64,000 bases of DNA from Wenzhouxiangella sp. AB-CW3. GTDB taxonomy: Bacteria > Pseudomonadota > Gammaproteobacteria > Xanthomonadales > Wenzhouxiangellaceae. The notes beneath the pieces are model-generated. The model was not told where the DNA came from, did not search any database, and saw nothing but the letters and a program-made list of their open reading frames with translations. Shown piece by piece: positions 5,474-23,869 of this stretch; within the stretch, counting starts at the first letter, position 1; each line of letters begins with the position of its first letter. The DNA lies in NCBI RefSeq assembly GCF_014725735.1, contig NZ_CP061368.1, forward strand, positions 2,061,225 to 2,125,224, given 5' to 3'. The position numbers were made by a program, and so were the translations under genes.

Positions 5474-6841
5474 TTACCGGCCAGACGCTGCAAATTGCGG
5501 GCCAGCCTTGCCGGGAATGTTCAGACCGGCATCGCGCATGCGCGAAAGCTTGTATCGAAGCGTTCGCGGGCTGATCCCCAGTCGCCTGGCCGTTCGCCCG
5601 CGATGCCCGCCCTCGGCCTGCAGTGCAGCCAGAATCACATCGCTTTCGCGATCCTCGACGGCTTCGTGAAGATTCTCGGTCGCGGGACGCGGGCTGTTCG
5701 CAGCCGTGGCGCTGCCGGGGACCGTTTCGAAGTAAAGCTCCGCAGGCCCGATCTCACTGCTCTCGCCAGCAAGCACCAGGGCGCGCTGGATGACATTGTC
5801 GAGCTCGCGAACATTGCCCGGCCAGTGGTGCTCCAGCAACCGCTGGAGCGCCTCGGTGGTCAGTGAGGGCCGTGCTGCCCTGCCGCGCCAGTGTCGCAGC
5901 AGCGAACGCCGGGCCAGCGGCTCGATATCGCCGGGACGCTCGGATAGTGGGGGCAGGTTCAGCGGGAAAACATTGAGTCGGTAGAACAGATCTTCCCGGA
6001 AACGCCCCGCTGCGACTTCGGCCGGCAGATCACGGTTGGTGGTGGCAATGACACGCACATCGAGCCCGATGGTGCGGTTGCCACCCAGCCGCTCGATCTC
6101 GCGCTCCTGCAGAACCCGCAGCAGCTTGGCCTGCAGCGACAGGTCCATCTCGGAAATCTCATCGAGCAGCAGCGTGCCGCCATCGGCATGCTCGAACTTG
6201 CCGATGCGAGCCTGGGTCGCACCCGTAAACGCGCCCTTTTCATGGCCGAACAGTTCGGCCTCAAGCATATGTTCGGGAATCGCGGCACAGTTCACGGCCA
6301 CGAACGGCTGTCCGGCCCGATCGCTCTCGGCATGGATAAATCGGGCATAGGCTTCCTTGCCGCTGCCGCTGGGCCCGCTGAGCAGCACGCTGATATCTGC
6401 ATGCGCCACCCGGGTCGCCAGCCCCAGCAATTCCCGGCTGCGTGGATCCTCGGCCACCAGACCTTCGGATTCGACCGCCGGAGCGTCGAAACGGCGGACC
6501 ATGTCCAGGAGCTCTGCGGACGAGACGGGCTTGACCAGGTAGTCAATCGCCCCCTCACGAATGGCCTGCACCGCCTGGGGAACACTGCCGAATGCGGTCA
6601 TGAGCACCACGGGGATGCCCGGATGGCGCAGCTTGATACGGGTGACCAGTTCCAGGCCGTCCCAGGGCTGCATCTGGATGTCCGATACCACAAGGGAAAC
6701 CGCTGTGTGCTCCAGCAGTTCAAGCGCTTTCGGACCATCGGCCGCCACGCTGACATTGATATCGTCCAGCTCCAGCGTTTCGCGCAAGGCCTCGCGCAAG
6801 TCGGCATCGTCCTCGACGATCAGCACATGAAATTCGGTCAT
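5474..6841 (-). CDS. fleR: Sigma-54-dependent response regulator FleR
   Basis: 455 residues in three parts. A receiver domain has the acidic pair ED-D at 10-12, phosphorylation site Asp54 and conserved Lys near 104. A sigma-54 AAA+ domain has a Walker A of the form GPSGSGKE and the GAFTGA loop that touches RpoN. The third part is a C-terminal Fis-type helix-turn-helix (GHRGRTARRLGISPRTLRYKLSRM). In Pseudomonas FleR drives the middle class of flagellar genes (rod, hook, export) with RpoN after phosphorylation by FleS. The gene overlaps fleS by four bases (ATGA). Confidence 0.93.
   Translation of the reverse strand: MTEFHVLIVEDDADLREALRETLELDDINVSVAADGPKALELLEHTAVSLVVSDIQMQPWDGLELVTRIKLRHPGIPVVLMTAFGSVPQAVQAIREGAIDYLVKPVSSAELLDMVRRFDAPAVESEGLVAEDPRSRELLGLATRVAHADISVLLSGPSGSGKEAYARFIHAESDRAGQPFVAVNCAAIPEHMLEAELFGHEKGAFTGATQARIGKFEHADGGTLLLDEISEMDLSLQAKLLRVLQEREIERLGGNRTIGLDVRVIATTNRDLPAEVAAGRFREDLFYRLNVFPLNLPPLSERPGDIEPLARRSLLRHWRGRAARPSLTTEALQRLLEHHWPGNVRELDNVIQRALVLAGESSEIGPAELYFETVPGSATAANSPRPATENLHEAVEDRESDVILAALQAEGGHRGRTARRLGISPRTLRYKLSRMRDAGLNIPGKAGPQFAASGR
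5489..5504 (-). promoter_or_regulatory. Sigma-54 (-24/-12) promoter of fliEFGHIJ
   Basis: On the minus strand the sequence reads TGGCCC-GCAAT-TTGCA, against the consensus TGGCAC-N5-TTGCA. The GG and GC doublets have the required 10-base spacing. It lies within the last codons of fleR and would start transcription near 5477, about 45 bases ahead of the fliE ATG. A class II, RpoN/FleQ- or FleR-dependent promoter is expected here from Pseudomonas. Confidence 0.75.
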
Positions 6842-9221: not shown

Positions 9222-10592
9222 TCAGTGGTGGGCGGCAATCCGCTCGCCCCGCTCGACCGCCAGCAAACGTTCGGCCACCGGGGGAATACCCATCGCTTCG
9301 CGGTACTTGGCCACTGTGCGCCGGGCAATGCGTACACCACGCTCGGACAGCAATCTGGCGATGCGACCATCACTCAGCGGCTGACCCGCTTCCTCGCCCT
9401 CGACGATGCGACGAATCAGCGCCCGCACCGCTGTCGACGAACAGCGCCCGCCATTACGGGTACCCAGCCGACTGGAAAAGAAGTACTTGAGCTCGAAGTT
9501 GCCTCGCGGCGTATGAATGTACTTGCGCGTGGTGACCCTGGACACGGTCGACTCGTGCATGCCCACGGCCGCGGCAATCTCTTCGAGCACCATCGGACGC
9601 ATGGCAATTTCGCCATGTTCCAGGAAACCACTCTGGTGTCGCATGATGGCTCCGGCCACCTTGAGCAACGTTTCGTTGCGCATCTGCACGCTGCGCACCA
9701 GCCAGCGAGCCTCCTGGAGCTGACCATGCATGGCCCGGTGGCCCTCGGCCTGCTCGGCCATCAGGCGCTCATAGAGTTCATTGACCCGGAGTCGCGGCAA
9801 CACCTGCGGGTTGAGCTCCACCACCCAGCGTCCACGACACTGCCGCACCACGACATCGGGCACGATGTACTCGGCATCGACTGCGCCGTAGCGCCGACCA
9901 GGCCGCGGGTCAAGCAGGCGCAACGCTTCCATGGCGGCGCACACCGTGGCCGCATTCTCTCCAATGGAGGCCGCCAATTCTTCAGTATCGGCACCAGCCA
10001 GGCTTTCCAGACCCAGCGCCAGCAATGCGTCGGCCGCTTCACGCACCTTTGATGACAGCTCGCGCCGCCGGAGTTGCACCGAAAGGCATTCGGCAATATC
10101 AACCGCACCGCAGCCGACGGGATCCAAGCCCATGATGACCTGCCGCACCGCCTCGAACTCCGCAGCATTGGCCGGAGCGCCCGGGACCAATCGGCGCAAC
10201 CCGTCAGGATCGGCAGCCAGCAGGCCATCCTCGTCCAGCGCATCAATGATCAACTCGGCGATCTGAAGATCGCGCTCCGAAAGGGACGACATGCCCAGCT
10301 GCCAGGCCAGGTGCGCATGCAGGTCGGCATCGGGTGCGGCCTGTTCGCGCTCCGGCAGCACCCCACCCGGGCTGGCCGATGCTGCAGGCCCGACCGTTTC
10401 GCGTTCCGCCCCCCCCGAGTCCCCGATCTCGTCGGCTTCTTCGGTTTCCAGAAAGACATTGTCATCGAGCGCTTGCTGCAACTCGCCATCGAGCTCGATC
10501 GAGGAAAGCTGCAGCAGGCGGATGGCGCGTTGCAACTGTGGCGTGACGGTCAGTTGCTGGCCGGTGCGAATCTGAAGCCCATTGTGCAGCAT
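9222..10592 (-). CDS. rpoN: RNA polymerase sigma-54 factor (flagellar-cluster copy)
   Basis: 456 residues. The Gln/Leu-rich region I ([29 protein letters not shown]) binds activators. An acidic linker, the core-binding domain and the helix-turn-helix ([20 protein letters not shown]) follow. The RpoN box [10 protein letters not shown] at about 423-432 reads the -24 element. A 24-residue tail follows the box, longer than usual. The ATG at 10592 has AGGGG eight bases upstream. Usual rpoN genes lie next to lptB and hpf; this one sits directly before fleQ, as rpoN2 does in Xanthomonas, so it may be a paralogue dedicated to flagella. Confidence 0.93.
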
Positions 10593-10685
10593 GGCGTACC
10601 CCTTTTCGTGTCGTTTCGTCAAAAATCCGACAAGCGCGAATTCAGTGACAGTTTTACGCCGTCAGCGCTTTGACACGATCAGGAA

Positions 10686-16040: not shown

Positions 16041-17855
16041 TTACTGCAGCAGTCCCAGCACATTCTGCGGCTGGGCGTTGGCCTGCGAGAGGACCGAGAT
16101 ACCGGCCTGCTGCAGGATCTGGGCGCGGGTCAGATTGGCCGTTTCGGCCGCAAAGTCCGCATCCTGGATCCGGCTGCGCGAGCTCTCCAGGTTTTCCACC
16201 GTGGCATTGAGGTTGGCGATGGTCGACTCGAAGCGGTTCTGCACCGCACCGAAGTCGCTGCGCAGGTCGCTGACCGAGGTCAGGGCAGCGTCGACACGGA
16301 AGATCGTGTCGTTGGCACCGTCGACGTCCAGCACGTTGGTGCCGACCAGGCTGCCACCGGCTTCGGAGACGGCGTCAAAGCCCAGCGTGGCGGCATCGCC
16401 ACCGGCGGTCACCGTGATGGTTTCCTGGGCGCTGAGCACGATTTCGTTGTCGTCGTTGAGGCTGGCACGACCTTCACCGGCCAGAGCCAGGTTGATGGCA
16501 TCGACCAGACCCTGCGCGCTGTCGTACGTGCCGTCAGCCACGGCTACCGCACTGGCGTCACCGATCTGGATCGAGAAGTCTCCGGCGACTTCGATCGTGC
16601 TGCCGGCAACCGACGCTTGCGCTTCGTCACCTTCAGTGGTCGTGGTGAGACCATTGAAGAAGGCGTCATCACCGGAGATGCCGATTACGCCATCGCCTTC
16701 ATCGTCGGAAGTAAAGACCAGCTCGCCGGCGGTATTCGCGGCAACCGAGAACCCGCTGCCAGCAGCGTTGATGGCAGTGACCAAGTCCGAGATGCTTCCA
16801 GACAAATCACTGTTCAGCGTGATTTCAGAACTGAATCCAGTTCCGGTGGCCGTCGGGCCGGTGACCGTGAAAGTGACATTGGCCGAGGAATCGTCAGCCA
16901 CGCCTGCGACATCATCGGTATCTCCGGCTGTCAGCAGCCCAGCATCAGTTCCACCAAAGCTGAAGTTGCCGGCGCTGTTGTCGAGGGCTGTGAATTCAAT
17001 TCCATCGCCTGAAACACTCGTGCTGAAATTGGCCCCTGTGGTTAAAGCCGCAGCATCACTGATTGCGACTGAAAGGGAATTAAGTGACGAGTTATCTCCA
17101 GACACCAGCTCCACCGTAACCGTAGTTCCACCAGGCGCGGTAACGGTAAACTCTGTGCCTGTACCGAAGTCGCCAAGCGTCAGGTCGTCGGTGGTAAAGG
17201 TAGCCGCGCTACCCGACACCGTAGAAAAATCAAGCTGAGCCAGATCGATTTCACCGGTGGTCGAAACGGCGGCAGCACCCGAAACACCATCCTGACCCTC
17301 AGAGATCAGGCCACTCGTGTCGACCGAAGAGGTCGTGGCCACCGCACCGATGGAATCCAGGCGCATGCTGGTGTTGAGGTCCACGCCGATGGTCTGTCCG
17401 ACGTTGGCACCAACCTGGAAGGTGGCGTTGCCGAAGGTGCCATCGAGCACGTTGCGGCCGTTGAACGAGGTCTGCTCGGCAATGCGGTCGATCTCGGCCA
17501 GGCGCTGCTGCACTTCCTGGTCCAGCGCGGCGCGGTCGGCATTGGAATTGGTGGCGTTGGCCGACTGCACGGCCAGCTCACGAATCCGCTGCAGGTTGTT
17601 GTTGAGCTCACCCAGCGCACCCTCGGCGGTCTGTGCCAGGGAAATGCCGTCGTTGGAGTTCCGAACCGCCTGGTTCAGGCCGCGGATCTGCGTGGTGAAA
17701 CGCTCCGAAATCGCCAGGCCGGCCGCATCGTCCTTGGCGCTGTTGATGCGCAGGCCCGATGACAGACGCTCCAGCGAGGTCGCCAGGGCACCCTGGGACT
17801 GACCCAGGTTACGCTGAGCGTTCAGCGAAAGAATGTTGGTGTTAATAACTGCCAT
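16041..17855 (-). CDS. fliC: Flagellin FliC
   Basis: 604 residues. The N-terminal D0/D1 segment ([20 protein letters not shown] through about residue 170) and the C-terminal D1/D0 segment ([20 protein letters not shown], ending NVLGLLQ) are typical. The central 350 residues are a large Thr/Ser/Asp/Gly-rich, acidic surface domain. There is no cysteine and a single tyrosine (Tyr444). The ATG at 17855 has AAGGAGG nine bases upstream; the frame stays open for 204 bases beyond it but that stretch is the untranslated leader. Transcription fits the FliA promoter at 17981-18007. A TPR-sulfotransferase gene is divergently placed next to it. Confidence 0.97.
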
Positions 17856-18143: not shown

Positions 18144-18262
18144 GTAGACCGGGGATGCATCCCCGGTGAACAAGCGCCAAACCACCGCCCAAAACGCCGG
18201 CGATGCAACGCCGGCCTACGCCAGACGCCACAACCCAGGTAGACCGGGGTTGCATCTCCGGT
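18144..18262. repeat. Cluster of three REP hairpins
   Basis: Three imperfect palindromes are of the same types as in the large array at 21300-22551: CCGGGGATGCATCCCCGG, CGCCGGCGATGCAACGCCGG, and a CCGGGGTTGCATCTCCGG copy. Each is flanked by the conserved GTAGACC or CCTACG edges. They are non-autonomous elements probably mobilised by the RAYT encoded at 20772-21287. Confidence 0.85.
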
Positions 18263-18283
18263 AAACAAGCTTGAATGCCCCCC

Positions 18284-18299
18284 TGGCAAAAAAATTGCA
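18284..18299 (+). promoter_or_regulatory. Sigma-54 promoter of the TPR-sulfotransferase gene
   Basis: The sequence is TGGCAA-AAAAA-TTGCA. It differs from TGGCAC-N5-TTGCA at one position and has exact GG-GC spacing. Transcription would begin near 18310, about 28 bases before the ATG. It places this gene in the same RpoN regulon as the basal-body operons. Confidence 0.75.
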
Positions 18300-18337
18300 C
18301 AATAACCTGCAGACCAGAACCCGATTCGGAACCCGCC

Positions 18338-20479
18338 ATGAGCACCGAAAAACTCGCCCGCGCCCACAATCTTCTCGAACAGGGCAAACTGTCCGAAGCC
18401 GAAACCCAGTACCGCGAAATCCTGGCCCTGGAACCGGGACATGCCAGCGCCCACCATGGTCTTGCACGCGTGGCCCTGGCTTCCGATCAACCGGCCGCCG
18501 CGGCCGAGTTGCTGCAGAAGGCACTGCATGCCGAACCCGGCAACCCGGACCACTGGCTGGCCCTGGCGCGTGCCCTGACCCTGGCCGGCTTTCCCGATGA
18601 TGCCGGGAAGGTGCTGGCCGAAGGTCAGGCCGCCGGGGTTCTGGGCGACGATTCCGGTCCCAAGGCGGAACTGCCACACCATGCGAAGAAAGAGCTGGCC
18701 GACGCCAACAAGGCCGCATCGCGTGGCCAGTTCCGTCGGGCCGAGAAAATCATGGCGGATCTGGTCCGCCGCTGGCCAGAACACTTTGAAGTTCAGCAAC
18801 TGCTGGGAAAGATCCTTGCCCGCCAGCAAAAGCACCGCGAAGCCATCGAGCCGCTTTACGAGGCTCACAAGCTCGACCGCAAGAATACCGAGGTACTGGC
18901 CATTCTCGGTAGCTGTCTTCAGAGCCTGCGGCAACTGGGCGATGCACGAAAGTGCTTTGAACAGGTGCTGGCCATGGAGCCGGACAATGCCGGGGTGCAC
19001 AATCAACTGGCCTCCGTTCTTCACAGTCTCAACGAAGACCAATCCGCCCTTGAACATGCCGAGCGGGCGCTGGCCATCAAGCCCGATTTTCCCAGTGCCC
19101 TGATCAACAAGGGCAACGCGCTGCGCGGCCTGAAACGAACCGATGCGGCCAGAGAAGCCTACCAGCAGGCAAGACACTTGCAACCTGATTACTTCGCCGC
19201 CGAGGCCAACCTCGGCACTGTGGACCGCGATGACGGCCACACCTTGAGTGCGCGCGACCATTACAAGCGCTCACTGGAACTGAAGCCGGACCAGCCGGAC
19301 ATTCTTCATAACCTGGGCTCGGTTCATATGGATCTTGGCGAGCCGGAAGAGGCATTGGCCTGTTACCGGGAAGCCGCGCGACTGGCCCCGCATCGAATCG
19401 AAACCCTGGAAGCCGTCGGTGATCTCACCACCTGGGCCGATGCTGAAGACAAGCATTTGCAGGCACTGACCGAAGCGCTTGATGCCGGGCACCTGCCTTT
19501 GCAGGAACAGGTGTTCGCCGGCTTCGCACTGGGCAAGGCACTGCTGGACCTCGGTGAAGAAGACGCCGCCTTCCAGCGCTACCAACAGGCCAACCTTTGC
19601 GCGCGCAAGCTCTACGGCAAACATCAGCCTGAGCTGGCGATCGGGCTTCTGAAGGTCTTTGGTGGATTCATGAAACCGGGATTCCTCGAAAAAAGAAAGG
19701 ACTTCGGGGACACCGATGCGTGTGAGATCTTCGTGATGGGCTTTTCACGCAGCGGCAAGTCGCTGGTCGAAAGCCTGATCACCGGCGACCCGGACATCAC
19801 GCCATGCCGGGAACAGCGCGATTTCATGGTATTCGGGCACAGCAGACTCGGCGCCGAGAAGAACAAGTTCTCGTCCCGCCATCTCATCAATTACATCCGT
19901 GAACTTGAGGCAGATGAGAGTCGACGGGAAGCCGCACGCTATCTGGACCAGTACAACCCCGAACGAATGCCTCGGACGCTGACCAACCCGGGCAACCTCC
20001 CCTTGCTGGGCTTTCTTCCACTCTGGATGCCCAAGACCCCGATCATCTTCTGCCGCCGGGACCTGATGGATCTTGGCCTGTCATGCTATTTCAAGCGCTA
20101 TGCACAGGGCCACGAGTACAGCTACGATCTCGCTGCCCTGGGCCAGGAAATCCGGCTCAACGATGCCTTTATCGACCTGTGGCTGGAATACCTTCCCAAC
20201 CCCATGCTCGAAGTGCACTACGAGGACGTCGTGCGCCAGCCCGAGCAAACCGCCCGGACGATTCACGAGTTTCTTGGCCGCGAATGGAAGCCGGAGTATC
20301 TGGACGTGCTCGACACCCGCCAGGACCTGGCCGCCGCGCTGGGCCCGGCCGGCTCCGTCGATGCACCAATGGCCCTGCGCGATGACTTCATCGGCTTTTC
20401 AAAGCCTTTTCATCACCGACTTGAGCCCCTGGTCAAGGGATACGAAAGCATCAACATCAAGAAAACGTCGGACGAGTAG
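18338..20479 (+). CDS. TPR-repeat sulfotransferase family protein, possibly acting on flagellin
   Basis: 713 residues. The N-terminal 430 residues are tetratricopeptide repeats (for example AHNLLEQGKLSEAETQYREI and AREAYQQARHLQPDYFAAEA), a protein-binding superhelix. The C-terminal 260 residues are a sulfotransferase-like domain: the PAPS-binding loop reads EIFVMGFSRSGKSLVESLIT, and a later conserved stretch is LEVHYEDVVRQPEQTARTIH. No signal peptide, so cytoplasmic. It starts 482 bases from divergent fliC and has a -24/-12 promoter like the basal-body genes. The inferred role is transfer of a sulfo group to flagellin or its glycan, by analogy with TPR-type modifying enzymes of flagellar islands. 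The ATG at 18338 starts the first repeat; an upstream in-frame codon overlaps the promoter. Confidence 0.75.
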   Translation: MSTEKLARAHNLLEQGKLSEAETQYREILALEPGHASAHHGLARVALASDQPAAAAELLQKALHAEPGNPDHWLALARALTLAGFPDDAGKVLAEGQAAGVLGDDSGPKAELPHHAKKELADANKAASRGQFRRAEKIMADLVRRWPEHFEVQQLLGKILARQQKHREAIEPLYEAHKLDRKNTEVLAILGSCLQSLRQLGDARKCFEQVLAMEPDNAGVHNQLASVLHSLNEDQSALEHAERALAIKPDFPSALINKGNALRGLKRTDAAREAYQQARHLQPDYFAAEANLGTVDRDDGHTLSARDHYKRSLELKPDQPDILHNLGSVHMDLGEPEEALACYREAARLAPHRIETLEAVGDLTTWADAEDKHLQALTEALDAGHLPLQEQVFAGFALGKALLDLGEEDAAFQRYQQANLCARKLYGKHQPELAIGLLKVFGGFMKPGFLEKRKDFGDTDACEIFVMGFSRSGKSLVESLITGDPDITPCREQRDFMVFGHSRLGAEKNKFSSRHLINYIRELEADESRREAARYLDQYNPERMPRTLTNPGNLPLLGFLPLWMPKTPIIFCRRDLMDLGLSCYFKRYAQGHEYSYDLAALGQEIRLNDAFIDLWLEYLPNPMLEVHYEDVVRQPEQTARTIHEFLGREWKPEYLDVLDTRQDLAAALGPAGSVDAPMALRDDFIGFSKPFHHRLEPLVKGYESINIKKTSDE

Positions 20480-20480
20480 A

Positions 20481-20690
20481 GCGCCGGCGATGCAACGCCG
20501 GCCTACGCCAGGTGGCATCATTTCCCGGCTTAGACTGGGGTAGCACAGGGTGAAAGCACGGGACGGCTTGCGCAGCAAGAAGCGCCGCGCTGGAATCCGG
20601 CCGCGCGTGTCCCCGGCGCACGGACTCCGGATGGATGCCCGGGAACGCCGGCCATGCCAGGCCGGCCTACCAGTGGCATCATTTCCCATC
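20481..20690. repeat. REP hairpins between sulfotransferase and RAYT genes
   Basis: Two REP palindromes occur: GCGCCGGCGATGCAACGCC type at 20481-20507, and an AACGCCGGCCATGCCAGGCC type at 20643-20670. Each is followed by a TGGCATCATT-like tail also seen in the downstream array. Between them lies the first copy of an 87-base direct repeat. Confidence 0.8.
20531..20617. repeat. 87-bp direct repeat, copy 1
   Basis: It begins TAGACTGGGGTAGCACAGGG and ends CGCGCGTGTCCCCGGC. It aligns without gaps to 22553-22639 with about ten substitutions. The two copies bracket the RAYT gene and the REP array. Confidence 0.85.
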
Positions 20691-20771: not shown

Positions 20772-21287
20772 ATGCGCATGGCGCGGTTCAGACGATACTT
20801 TCAACCCGAAGACTGGGTATTCCTGACGCTGGTGACCGGAAACCGCCGGCCCTGGTTGCGTGAAAGTCGAGACAAGCGGCAATTGCTGCAATGCATGCGG
20901 GCCCTCAAGCGTGACCTGCCGTTCCGGCATCTGGCGCATGTGATTCTTGACGATCATCTGCATTGGCTGCTGATTGCCGATGAAGGGCATGACATCCCTG
21001 CCCTGGTGTCTTCGCTCAAGCGGCGGGTATGTTTTGAACGCCGCGATCGCGGCCTTTCGTGGCGGGGGTTGTGGCAGGCGCGGTATTACGACCATATCCT
21101 GCGTGATGATCGCGATTTCCGGGTTCACATGGATTACATCCATTACAACCCGGTGCGGCATGGTTATGTCGCCATGGCGCGTCAGTACCGGTGGTCGAGT
21201 TTTCATGCCTGGGTCGAGCGCGGGTTGTATGAGCCGTGTTGGGGTATGCGGGAACCGGATTCGATTGGTGGGTTGAATCTGGAGTAG
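20772..21287 (+). CDS. REP-associated tyrosine transposase (RAYT, IS200/IS605-like)
   Basis: 171 residues. The HUH motif is HVILDDHLHWLL (His62 and His64). The catalytic tyrosine lies in DYIHYNPVRHGYV (Tyr122 or Tyr125), and the C-terminal WSSFHAWVERG is typical of the family. RAYTs are single-copy, domesticated Y1 transposases that nick and spread REP palindromes. Start choice: the ATG at 20772 is preferred because homology begins at once (MARFRRYF); the frame extends upstream through repeat sequence and is not believed. It sits between REP clusters on both sides, the expected genetic arrangement. Confidence 0.92.
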   Translation: MRMARFRRYFQPEDWVFLTLVTGNRRPWLRESRDKRQLLQCMRALKRDLPFRHLAHVILDDHLHWLLIADEGHDIPALVSSLKRRVCFERRDRGLSWRGLWQARYYDHILRDDRDFRVHMDYIHYNPVRHGYVAMARQYRWSSFHAWVERGLYEPCWGMREPDSIGGLNLE

Positions 21288-21299
21288 ATCGGGGGTGGG

Positions 21300-22551
21300 A
21301 GAACGCCGGCCATGCAAGGCCGGCCTACGAGGTGGCATCATTAGCCGGTGTAGGCGTAGACCGGGGTTGCATCCCCGGTGCACGGACGCCGGATAGATGC
21401 CGCGGAACGCCGGCCATGCAAGGCCGGCCTACAAGGTGGCATCATTAGCCGGTGTAGGCGTAGGCCGGGGCTGCGTCCCCGGTGTAGGGAGCTTGAATCG
21501 ATGCCGGGAACGCCGGCGACGCAACGCCGGCCCACGAATACCGCACCCGCAATATTGCCGGTGGCCGAATCTCAGGCGTAGACCGGGGTTGCATCCCCGG
21601 TGCACAGACGCCGGATAGATGCCGCGGAACGCCGGCCATGCAAGGCCGGCCTACAAGGTGGCATCATTAGCCGGTGCAGGCGTAGGCCGGGGCTGCGTCC
21701 CCGGTGTAGTGCACGGACGCCGAATCGATGCCGGGAACGCCGGCGACGCAACGCCGGCCCACGAATACCGCACCCGCAATATTGCCGGTGGCCGAATCTC
21801 AGGCGTAGACCGGGGTTGCATCCCCGGTGCACGGACGCCGGATAGATGCCGGGAACTACGAGATGGCATCATTAGCCGGTGCAGGCGTAGGCCGGGGCTG
21901 CGTCCCCGGTGTAGTGCACGGACGCCGAATCGATGCCGGGAACGCCGGCGACGCAACGCCGGCCCAGGAATACCGCACCCGCAATATTGCCGGTGGCCGA
22001 ATCTCAGGCGTAGACCGGGGTTGCATCCCCGGTGCACAGACGCCGGATAGATGCCGCGGAACGCCGGCCATGCAAGGCCGGCCTACAAGGTGGCATCATT
22101 AGCCGGTGTAGGCGTAGGCCGGGGCTGCGTCCCCGGTGTAGGGAGCTTGAATCGATGCCGGGAACGCCGGCGACGCAACGCCGGCCCAGGAATACCGCAC
22201 CCGCAATATTGCCGGTGGCCGAGTCTCAGGCGTAGACCGGGGTTGCATCCCCGGTGCACGGACGCCGGATAGATGCCGCGGAACGCCGGCCATGCAAGGC
22301 CGGCCTACGAGATGGCATCATTAGCCGGTGTAGGCGTAGACCGGGGTTGCATCCCCGGTGTAGGGAGCTTGAATCGATGCCGGGAACGCCGGCGACGCAA
22401 CGCCGGCCCAGGAATACCGCACCCGCAATATTGCCGGTGGCCGAGTCTCAGGCGTAGACCGGGGTTGCATCCCCGGTGCACGGACGCCGGATAGATGCCG
22501 CGGAACGCCGGCCATGCAAGGCCGGCCTACGAGGTGGCATCATTAGCCGGT
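21300..22551. repeat. 222-bp tandem array built of four alternating REP hairpins
   Basis: About five and a half units with a 222-base period. Each unit has four hairpins in order: A (CCGGCCATGCAAGGCCGG), B (CCGGGGCTGCGTCCCCGG), C (GCCGGCGACGCAACGCCGGC) and D (CCGGGGTTGCATCCCCGG). They are joined by fixed linkers such as TGGCATCATTAGCCGGTG and ACCGCACCCGCAATATTGCC. I count 6 A, 4 B, 5 C and 7 D copies. The unit near 21850 lacks hairpin A, and in the unit near 22340 B has the D sequence. Open frames across it recur only because the repeat does; none is a gene. The array lies between the RAYT gene and flgL. Confidence 0.93.
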
Positions 22552-22657: not shown

Positions 22658-23866
22658 TCAGCCCATGAAGTTGAACAGGTTGAGTTGCTGAACTCGCATG
22701 AAGCTTTGCTGGGCGGCCTGCAGGGCGGTCTGCTGGAACTGGAAGCGGCTGATGGCTTCGGCGTAGTCCAGATCGCGCACTTCCGAGACCAGGGTTTCCA
22801 GCGAGAGCTTGACCTCGGAATGGCTTTCCTCGACATCGTCGAAGGTATTCATGCGCGCGCCCAGGTCGGCACGTAACGTCAACAACTGGTTTTCAAAGCG
22901 GTCGAACTGGGCCAATGTGTCGTCGATGGTCTGCCGCTGTGCGGCACGCTCGCTATCGTTGGCCGGGGCCTGTTCCAGCGCTGCGGCGAGGTTTTCCACG
23001 GTGGCAAAGATGGAGGTGTTTCGGGCCGGCTCGACGACGAATTCATCCCCGATCTCGGGTTGACCGCCGATCGTGATCTCCACGCCCTGGAAAGCAATCA
23101 CCGAATCCGGCTCGAAGGTGCCGGTGGCCACAACATTGGGCGGTGTATCGCTGTCGACGACCTGCCAGTCGTCCGGATCGGGCCCGGCGAATTGCAAGGT
23201 GTAGGTGCCCCCGTCATAAACCGCCTGATCGACCTGTTGGCCGACCTGCACCACGCCCGATCCGGTGTTGCCGGCACCCGGCTCGGCACGCACGATGCCA
23301 TTGCCGTCGCGGATGCGCATGTAGGCCTGGTCGCCGGTCAGCGATTCGGCCGCCGTGGTGCCGGGACCGATCACCAGCTCCCGGGCCTGGCTGTCGCCCC
23401 GGTAAACGACCTCGCCGTTCTCGCGCACGAAGGGCTTGTCGCCGGTTCGTGAGCCGGCAAAGATGTATTCACCGCCCCCGTCCTGGCTGTTGGCGGTCAG
23501 CAGCATTTCTTCGACGCGCTGGCGCAGCTCGGCGGCCACCATGGCGCGCTGATCACTGCCCAGGGTGTCATTGGCCGCCTGCACGGCCAGCTCGCGCGCC
23601 CGCTGGACGGTGTTGCCAGTGCTCGACAGCGCCTGTTCGGCCACTCCCATGCGCTGACGCCCGCGGTCAATGTTCTTCTGAAAGACTTCCTGCTGCTTGA
23701 CCGAGCGCTCCAGTTCCTGAAGTCGCGCCGCGCCAACCGGGTCGTCGGACGGGTTGTTGATGCGCCGGCCAGTGGTGAGCTGCAACTGGGTCTGATTGAG
23801 ATTGGACTGCTGGCCCAGTATGCCGTTGAGTCCGGACTGGTACAGCCACTGGGTAGAGACACGCAT
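22658..23866 (-). CDS. flgL: Hook-filament junction protein FlgL (HAP3)
   Basis: 402 residues. The N-terminus MRVSTQWLYQSGLNGILGQQ followed by a flagellin-like helix (TTGRRINNPSDDPVGAARLQ) is diagnostic. The C-terminus has the flagellin-type helix ALQAAQQSFMRVQQLNLFNF. FlgL joins FlgK to the filament. The ATG at 23866 has GGAGG eight bases upstream; an adjacent GTG is in frame one codon earlier. It follows flgK directly, with a three-base gap, and shares the FliA promoter upstream of flgK. Confidence 0.95.
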   Translation of the reverse strand: MRVSTQWLYQSGLNGILGQQSNLNQTQLQLTTGRRINNPSDDPVGAARLQELERSVKQQEVFQKNIDRGRQRMGVAEQALSSTGNTVQRARELAVQAANDTLGSDQRAMVAAELRQRVEEMLLTANSQDGGGEYIFAGSRTGDKPFVRENGEVVYRGDSQARELVIGPGTTAAESLTGDQAYMRIRDGNGIVRAEPGAGNTGSGVVQVGQQVDQAVYDGGTYTLQFAGPDPDDWQVVDSDTPPNVVATGTFEPDSVIAFQGVEITIGGQPEIGDEFVVEPARNTSIFATVENLAAALEQAPANDSERAAQRQTIDDTLAQFDRFENQLLTLRADLGARMNTFDDVEESHSEVKLSLETLVSEVRDLDYAEAISRFQFQQTALQAAQQSFMRVQQLNLFNFMG

Positions 23867-23869
23867 CAC

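Follow-up and report, generated by a model that had tools for sequence, protein, structure and literature searches.

A TPR-sulfotransferase gene beside flagellin in Wenzhouxiangella sp. AB-CW3, with a sigma-54-type promoter element and an altered active site: a candidate flagellar modifying enzyme

The question raised by this locus is whether a TPR protein with a sulfotransferase-like domain, encoded beside the flagellin gene of Wenzhouxiangella sp. AB-CW3, belongs to the flagellar system and which small group it would transfer. The window is the whole 64,000-nucleotide stretch of NZ_CP061368.1 analysed here (positions 2,061,225 to 2,125,224), and the region is a flagellar cluster. The reading we prefer, with a probability of roughly 0.45, is that the gene encodes a protein-modifying enzyme of TPST fold within the flagellar regulon, whose donor chemistry is altered and may depend on an NTP. 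The features of the locus are as follows (positions of the window).

5474..6841, minus strand: sigma-54-dependent response regulator; no single NCBIfam equivalog cut-off was reached
9222..10622, minus strand: RpoN (sigma-54), by NCBIfam match, within the flagellar cluster
16041..17855, minus strand: flagellin gene fliC, with Flagellin_N and Flagellin_C, the divergent neighbour of the TPR-sulfotransferase (TPR-ST) gene
18284..18299, plus strand: sigma-54 (-24/-12) promoter-like element TGGCAAAAAAATTGCA, an exact consensus match 38 bp before the ATG
18338..20479, plus strand: TPR plus sulfotransferase-fold protein of 713 aa, from ORF translation, Pfam and structure prediction
20778..21287, plus strand: REP-associated tyrosine transposase (RAYT), NF047646, downstream of the TPR-ST gene
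22658..23869, minus strand: flgL, TIGR02550, the other border of the flgL-fliC gap

In the 713-aa protein the TPRs occupy approximately residues 1-360 and are followed by a linker and then by the Sulfotransfer_3 domain at residues 464-652 (Pfam E 1.1e-21; 78.5 bits, above the curated cut-off of 27). The ATG at 18338 is the likely translation start, since an alternative longer reading frame from 18275 would enclose the promoter element; the stop codon ends at 20479. The protein is presumably cytoplasmic. Its own genome has three Sulfotransfer_3 matches in total, and the rest of the matches to the 713-aa protein there (E 1e-3) are confined to the TPR part, which also holds the matches to two PHROGs families of unknown function. 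The first-pass annotation had described a TPR protein fused to a sulfotransferase domain and divergent from fliC, and this description is borne out: the domain and many TPRs are present, and the two reading frames point away from each other at a distance of 482 bp.

The flgL-fliC gap of the window contains the TPR-ST gene plus the RAYT, and no glycosyltransferase was seen in it. REP-like repeated GCCGGCCTACG... segments were noticed by eye at 18150-18270, 20480-20690 and 21290-21490, where they flank both the TPR-ST gene and the RAYT, and the promoter element begins immediately after one of them. RAYT genes were also seen at other flagellin loci, namely in the flgL-fliC gap of genome G278 beside its TPR-ST gene (L114 8501-9241) and in or near the flagellin region of G467 (L181 16196-16657), both genomes being of another family. 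The repeats and the transposase of the window would suit a non-flagellar enzyme that was carried into the gap by chance through mobile elements. We consider such an origin very improbable, and the RAYT is probably irrelevant to the function of the TPR-ST gene.

The first evidence against a chance arrival is the promoter element itself. The spacing of TGGCAAAAAAATTGCA is that of a -24/-12 promoter, and exact matches to TGGCAN6TTGCW occur five times in the window against 0.39 expected, a number that none of 100 shuffles reached. With one mismatch allowed there are 13 matches against 9.2 by chance, which is no excess, and therefore weight is given only to the exact matches. Three of the others precede flgG (29475, minus strand), flgB (33099, minus strand) and flgA (33269, plus strand), and the fifth, at 399 on the minus strand, lies just 3' of fliI near the window edge. 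The earlier statement that a near-consensus element precedes this gene, as it precedes the basal-body operons, is thus confirmed with exact matches. At the level of sequence the window TPR-ST gene has both a flagellar-type promoter element and a place in the flagellar cluster, and RpoN would transcribe it along with the hook and basal-body genes.

Among relatives the link to flagellin is irregular. Flagellin was found in 20 of the 101 genomes of the relatives sample, the window genome counted, and flagellin regions were examined in 17 of the other 19 flagellated relatives (all except G058 and G084; some contigs end inside the region). By profile search the TPR-ST is absent from the flagellin regions of these 17, and the flgL-fliC gap of the flagellated same-genus genome G018 has no TPR-ST gene, so that the gene is not a fixed member of the cluster in this clade. 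The first-pass annotation had asked whether the gene always neighbours fliC, and these relatives rule out a constant neighbourhood. In the gap of G018 (L037 13408-14118) the end of a reading frame resembles a PIN-domain protein by eye. PF13469 is frequent in the sample (81 of 101 genomes at E 1e-8), and the nearest same-family homologues (G041, G037, G010 and G011; at most 11 candidates per genome scored) are 28-32% identical and belong to genomes without a flagellin match. A scan of genome contigs for close orthologues gave two canonical TPR-STs only, with flagellar neighbours absent in the surrounding DNA examined.

The class-wide sample gives a different picture. At least 74 of 370 genomes, including that of the window, match the domain half at E 1e-15; because scoring was limited to five candidates per genome, these counts are minimum values. 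Flagellin is present in 45 of the 73 other genomes with a match, and six of the 68 matches in these 45 lie within 15 kb of flagellin against 0.68 expected (Poisson 7.5e-5, which assumes independent matches, an assumption violated by tandem genes). Five lie within 10 kb and four within 5 kb. This enrichment speaks against a non-flagellar enzyme, while the absence from the flagellin regions of the 17 relatives and the position of the remaining 62 matches, more than 15 kb from flagellin or on another contig, speak for it. Clusters of several TPR-sulfotransferase genes were also seen at L095, L098, L103 and L092, with flagellar genes absent from the 20 kb of sequence covered there.

Members of the linked group are described individually because their arrangement recurs. 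The order in G278 is flgL, RAYT, TPR-ST and fliC, with the TPR-ST gene divergent from fliC, the same as in the window, and in G203 the TPR-ST gene stands between flgL and fliC. G295 has a TPR-ST of the variant type described below immediately upstream of fliC at a contig end, and G351 has a variant one flanked by fliD and a sigma-54 regulator. In G357 a canonical TPR-ST lies near two flagellins and three TPR-GT41 (Glyco_transf_41) proteins. The weakest case is G410, where 13 kb with other genes separate TPR-ST and flagellin. Five further cases were found via relatedness and are outside the enrichment count: G892 (genus of G351), with a variant TPR-ST between fliS and a sigma-54 regulator; G467 and G468 (family of G278), with the gene inside the flgL-fliC gap; G498, with the gene directly 5' of fliC; and G147 (family of G357), with the gene downstream of fliS. 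The last four came from 18 regions fetched around TPR-STs of further relatives. Occupation of the same gap in G203, G278, G467 and G468 and the proximity of variant members to flagellar genes in G295, G351 and G892 are both difficult to reconcile with chance insertion. The flagellar link proposed earlier therefore stands for the cluster location, the sigma-54 element and the recurrence beside flagellin in other families, and it does not extend to the 62 unlinked homologues.

Two observations belong to these loci. The canonical TPR-ST genes of G467 and G468 (L181, L182) are on the same strand as both flgL and fliC. One of the three TPR-Glyco_transf_41 proteins of G357 (L118, L202) has 1322 aa, and its C-terminal part is sulfotransferase-like by eye, without a Pfam match there.

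Promoter scoring was extended to distinct TPR-ST genes over an interval running from 200 bp before the ORF to 100 bp into it, with weights for sigma-54-like sites that we set ourselves from the sigma-54 consensus; 115 of 117 genes were scored and two were without upstream DNA. A score of at least 18.5 was reached by four of 12 flagellin-linked genes (window, G278, G892 and G410) and by one of 103 others (Fisher 0.0003), and a score of at least 17 by six of 12 against 11 of 103 (Fisher 0.0023); for some of the 103 "unlinked" genes, linkage was judged only from the locus sequence around the gene. The site of G498 falls within its ORF, and no good sigma-54-like site was present between -200 and +100 bp in the linked genes of G203, G295, G357, G467, G468 and G147.

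The type of reaction was approached from the predicted fold. The domain was modelled with pLDDT 90.1 and pTM 0.89, and the whole-chain model is weaker (pTM 0.51). The domain model has the sulfotransferase fold, and in Foldseek TPSTs come first among the 50 best of 783 matches, all 50 being sulfotransferases, sulfotransferase domains or retinol dehydratase. No kinase is among these best 50, so a kinase fold as nearest relative was not found there. By profile comparison TPST1/2 are likewise the closest solved proteins, TPR proteins aside. The active site was therefore aligned with TPST2, whose catalytic residues are given as R78, E99, K158 and S285 (PMC5562738). The aligned features are the following.

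19739..19762, plus strand: loop GFSRSGKS (G468-S475), with Lys474 replacing the usual Thr/Ser and R471 aligned with TPST2 R78
19811..19813, plus strand: Glu492, kept, aligned with the catalytic Glu99 of TPST2
19982..19990, plus strand: T549-N-P551 where most members have D-K-x-P, with T549 at the place of TPST2 Lys158

For comparison, 116 distinct domains remained of 194 ORF matches once duplicates and reading frames no longer than 300 aa had been removed. The loop position after RSG is Thr or Ser in 110 of the 116, and 109 combine this loop T/S with the DKxP lysine. Loop Lys occurs in five (window, G411, G445, G295 and G351), and all five have Thr for the DKxP lysine; two further non-standard domains have T/T and A/G at the loop and DKxP positions. 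A sixth variant member with the same Lys/Thr exchange was found later in G892. Three of the five variant relatives of the window protein are flagellin-linked (G295, G351 and G892), and G411 and G445 are unlinked. The "PAPS loop GFSRSGKSL" of the first-pass annotation is thus present as a loop, but with its Lys it is not the usual PAPS loop. All six variant proteins share the loop GxxRSGK[ST], which is Walker-A-like: the string GxxxxGK[ST], which we take to be Walker A, occurs in 6/6 as a string match only. The variant of G445 (L110 8554-11514, 986 aa) has, by eye, more TPR-like sequence and a methyltransferase-like part after the transferase domain.

Alignment A3 has 46 rows, the six variant members and 40 chosen at random among rows whose loop fits T, S or K, so that the loop letter of the 40 is partly set by selection and the K158 and S285 letters are free. 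All 46 rows retain R78, E99 and the 3'-PSB Arg. The K158 position is T in 6/6 variant rows and K in 40/40 others. S285 is S in 40/40 others and in one of six variant rows (G295, loosely aligned there), a correspondence that depends on a weakly conserved stretch. QVRQP retains its Arg in 1/6 variant rows against 37/40 others, and the 3'-PSB Ser is present in 3/6 against 37/40. The window protein keeps two of the four TPST catalytic residues, R78 and E99; K158 is Thr and S285 is not kept.

Such losses could mean a pseudoenzyme, in which catalysis has been lost and the domain serves as a flagellin-binding chaperone or regulator. The two missing catalytic residues, the lost QVRQP segment and a Pfam score of 78.5 bits, below the 164-165 bits of G203 and G278, fit this explanation. 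Against it, none of the six proteins departs from the loop R-S-G-K, from E99, from the Thr at the K158 position or from the 3'-PSB Arg, although identity between the window protein and its variant relatives is no more than 21-30%. Decay would not leave such a pattern, which points to a working enzyme and no relic, and a pseudoenzyme is in our view improbable.

The variant group is small (six members) and thinly spread. In a quick tree of the 116 domains the window domain grouped with exactly the four variants other than that of G892 (SH-aLRT 98); their branches are all long, a point on which the tree program warns. After removal of the trait and C-terminal columns, the six-variant clade had p-AU 0.50, which neither supports nor rejects one origin. 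When the phylum was searched with the variant profile A2, at least 156 of 397 genomes gave matches (at most five candidates per genome scored). Among its best 30 loci the loop Lys is in the window only, T/S is in 28, and L226 did not match the loop expression; the variant is therefore rare or too divergent for this search.

The donor was considered through APS kinase, which PAPS requires. APS kinase (PF01583) was found in two of the six variant genomes, that of the window (G000) and G351, and was not detected by this search in G295, G411, G445 and G892, the assembly of G892 being 90% complete. It was found in 78 of 83 other genomes (74 of 79, plus G018, G203, G278 and G357; Fisher 0.0007 against 2/6), a set of carriers of TPR-ST or Sulfotransfer_3 matches in which the loop was read in part, which excludes G467, G468 and G147 and in which G419 was scored as positive from fragments. 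This test can miss through a gap in search or assembly, because G411 has a canonical TPR-ST in addition (loop WRSGTT, DKRP), and yet no APS kinase was found there. Fisher is 0.0047 without G411 and 0.031 without G411 and G892, which is of the same genus as G351.

These results bear on the possibility that the window protein is a PAPS-dependent flagellin sulfotransferase, in which Lys474 takes over the role of Lys158 and tyrosines or a glycan of flagellin are sulfated. We regard it as possible and somewhat doubtful. The fold and the closest solved relatives are those of TPSTs, R78, E99 and the 3'-PSB Arg are retained, and PAPS should be available in the window genome since APS kinase is found there. 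Canonical-loop TPR-STs stand at flagellin in seven other genomes (G203, G278, G357, G467, G468, G498 and G147), and APS kinase is present in G203, G278 and G357, the three of these that were checked. On the other hand, the K158 and S285 equivalents are gone, the loop has Lys, the 3'-PSB Ser is lost in 3/6, and APS kinase was not found in 4/6 variant genomes, including the flagellin-linked G295 and G892. The sulfo-transfer first proposed for this gene is weakened by these points. The linked family overall looks like PAPS enzymes, as judged from the canonical loop of at least eight other flagellin-linked genes, and the strongest candidates for a flagellin sulfotransferase with unaltered PAPS residues would be the genes of G467 and G468. 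The seven canonical cases (G410 apart) suggest a flagellin-side TPR-ST system whose common form is sulfation and which the window carries in a modified version.

We therefore return to the flagellar enzyme with altered donor chemistry. We infer its client from place and promoter: a flagellar protein, most likely flagellin awaiting export, would be bound by the TPR superhelix, and the TPST-fold domain would move a small charged group onto Ser, Thr or Tyr, or onto a glycan on it. The catalytic lysine would have shifted from the DKxP motif to the P-loop (GxxRSGK[ST]) with loss of the S285-type element, and this relocation and loss suggest a chemistry unlike canonical PAPS sulfation. Judged from the residues, the loop lysine could touch the bridging oxygen of PAPS like K158, or the phosphates of an NTP. 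Between phosphoryl-type transfer from an NTP and the use of PAPS with a relocated lysine, we slightly favour the former, because of the APS kinase pattern and the eroded S285 and QVRQP elements; counted against an altered donor, the best 50 of 783 fold matches are PAPS enzymes or their relatives. A more specific proposal, that a sulfotransferase lineage relocated its lysine into the P-loop and may now phosphorylate flagellin with NTP before export, as a flagellin kinase, is unlikely. Both sulfation and phosphorylation add 80 Da, so a +80 Da mass test must discriminate between them by ppm accuracy or by chemistry.

The surface charge of flagellin influences filament shape, adhesion, phage attachment and innate sensing. 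If our reading is true, the flagella of several bacterial families bear a charge modification made by flagellin-side TPR enzymes, the active site has been rebuilt in one lineage of them, and the locus offers a testable instance of donor switching within the sulfotransferase superfamily.

In the titles and abstract openings of the literature searched, which included few subscription journals, no sulfotransferase acting on bacterial flagellin was found. Related modifications are reported. Halobacterium archaellins and other glycoproteins carry sulfated N-glycans made with dedicated sulfotransferases (PMC11980604, PMC6591318); the likeness is in sulfo groups on glycans of swimming-filament proteins, and the difference is an archaeal N-glycan pathway and a filament unrelated to the flagellum. 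FliC of Pseudomonas aeruginosa is phosphorylated (+80 Da), which affects both secretion and biofilm, but at site T27 in the ND0 domain, and the available text of that report names no kinase (PMC5049796). Flagellin glycosylation loci with TPR-type GT41 resemble the present case in having their genes at flagellin, as with the GT41 proteins and canonical TPR-ST of G357, and differ in that the reaction predicted for the window enzyme is not glycosyl transfer. Bacterial TPR-sulfotransferases (TPR plus PF13469 Sulfotransfer_3) have an architecture identical to that of the window protein, but the loop T/S with DKxP lysine is theirs in 109/116 and the window type is seen in 5/116. The nearest non-TPR proteins by profile, and the nearest by predicted fold, are TPST1 and TPST2 (PDB 3ap1, 5wri, 8w5z), with which the window protein shares the loop Arg, the catalytic Glu and the 3'-PSB Arg; in contrast to them it is bacterial and fused to a TPR superhelix, and it has Thr for Lys158, Lys for the loop Thr81 and a lost S285 element.
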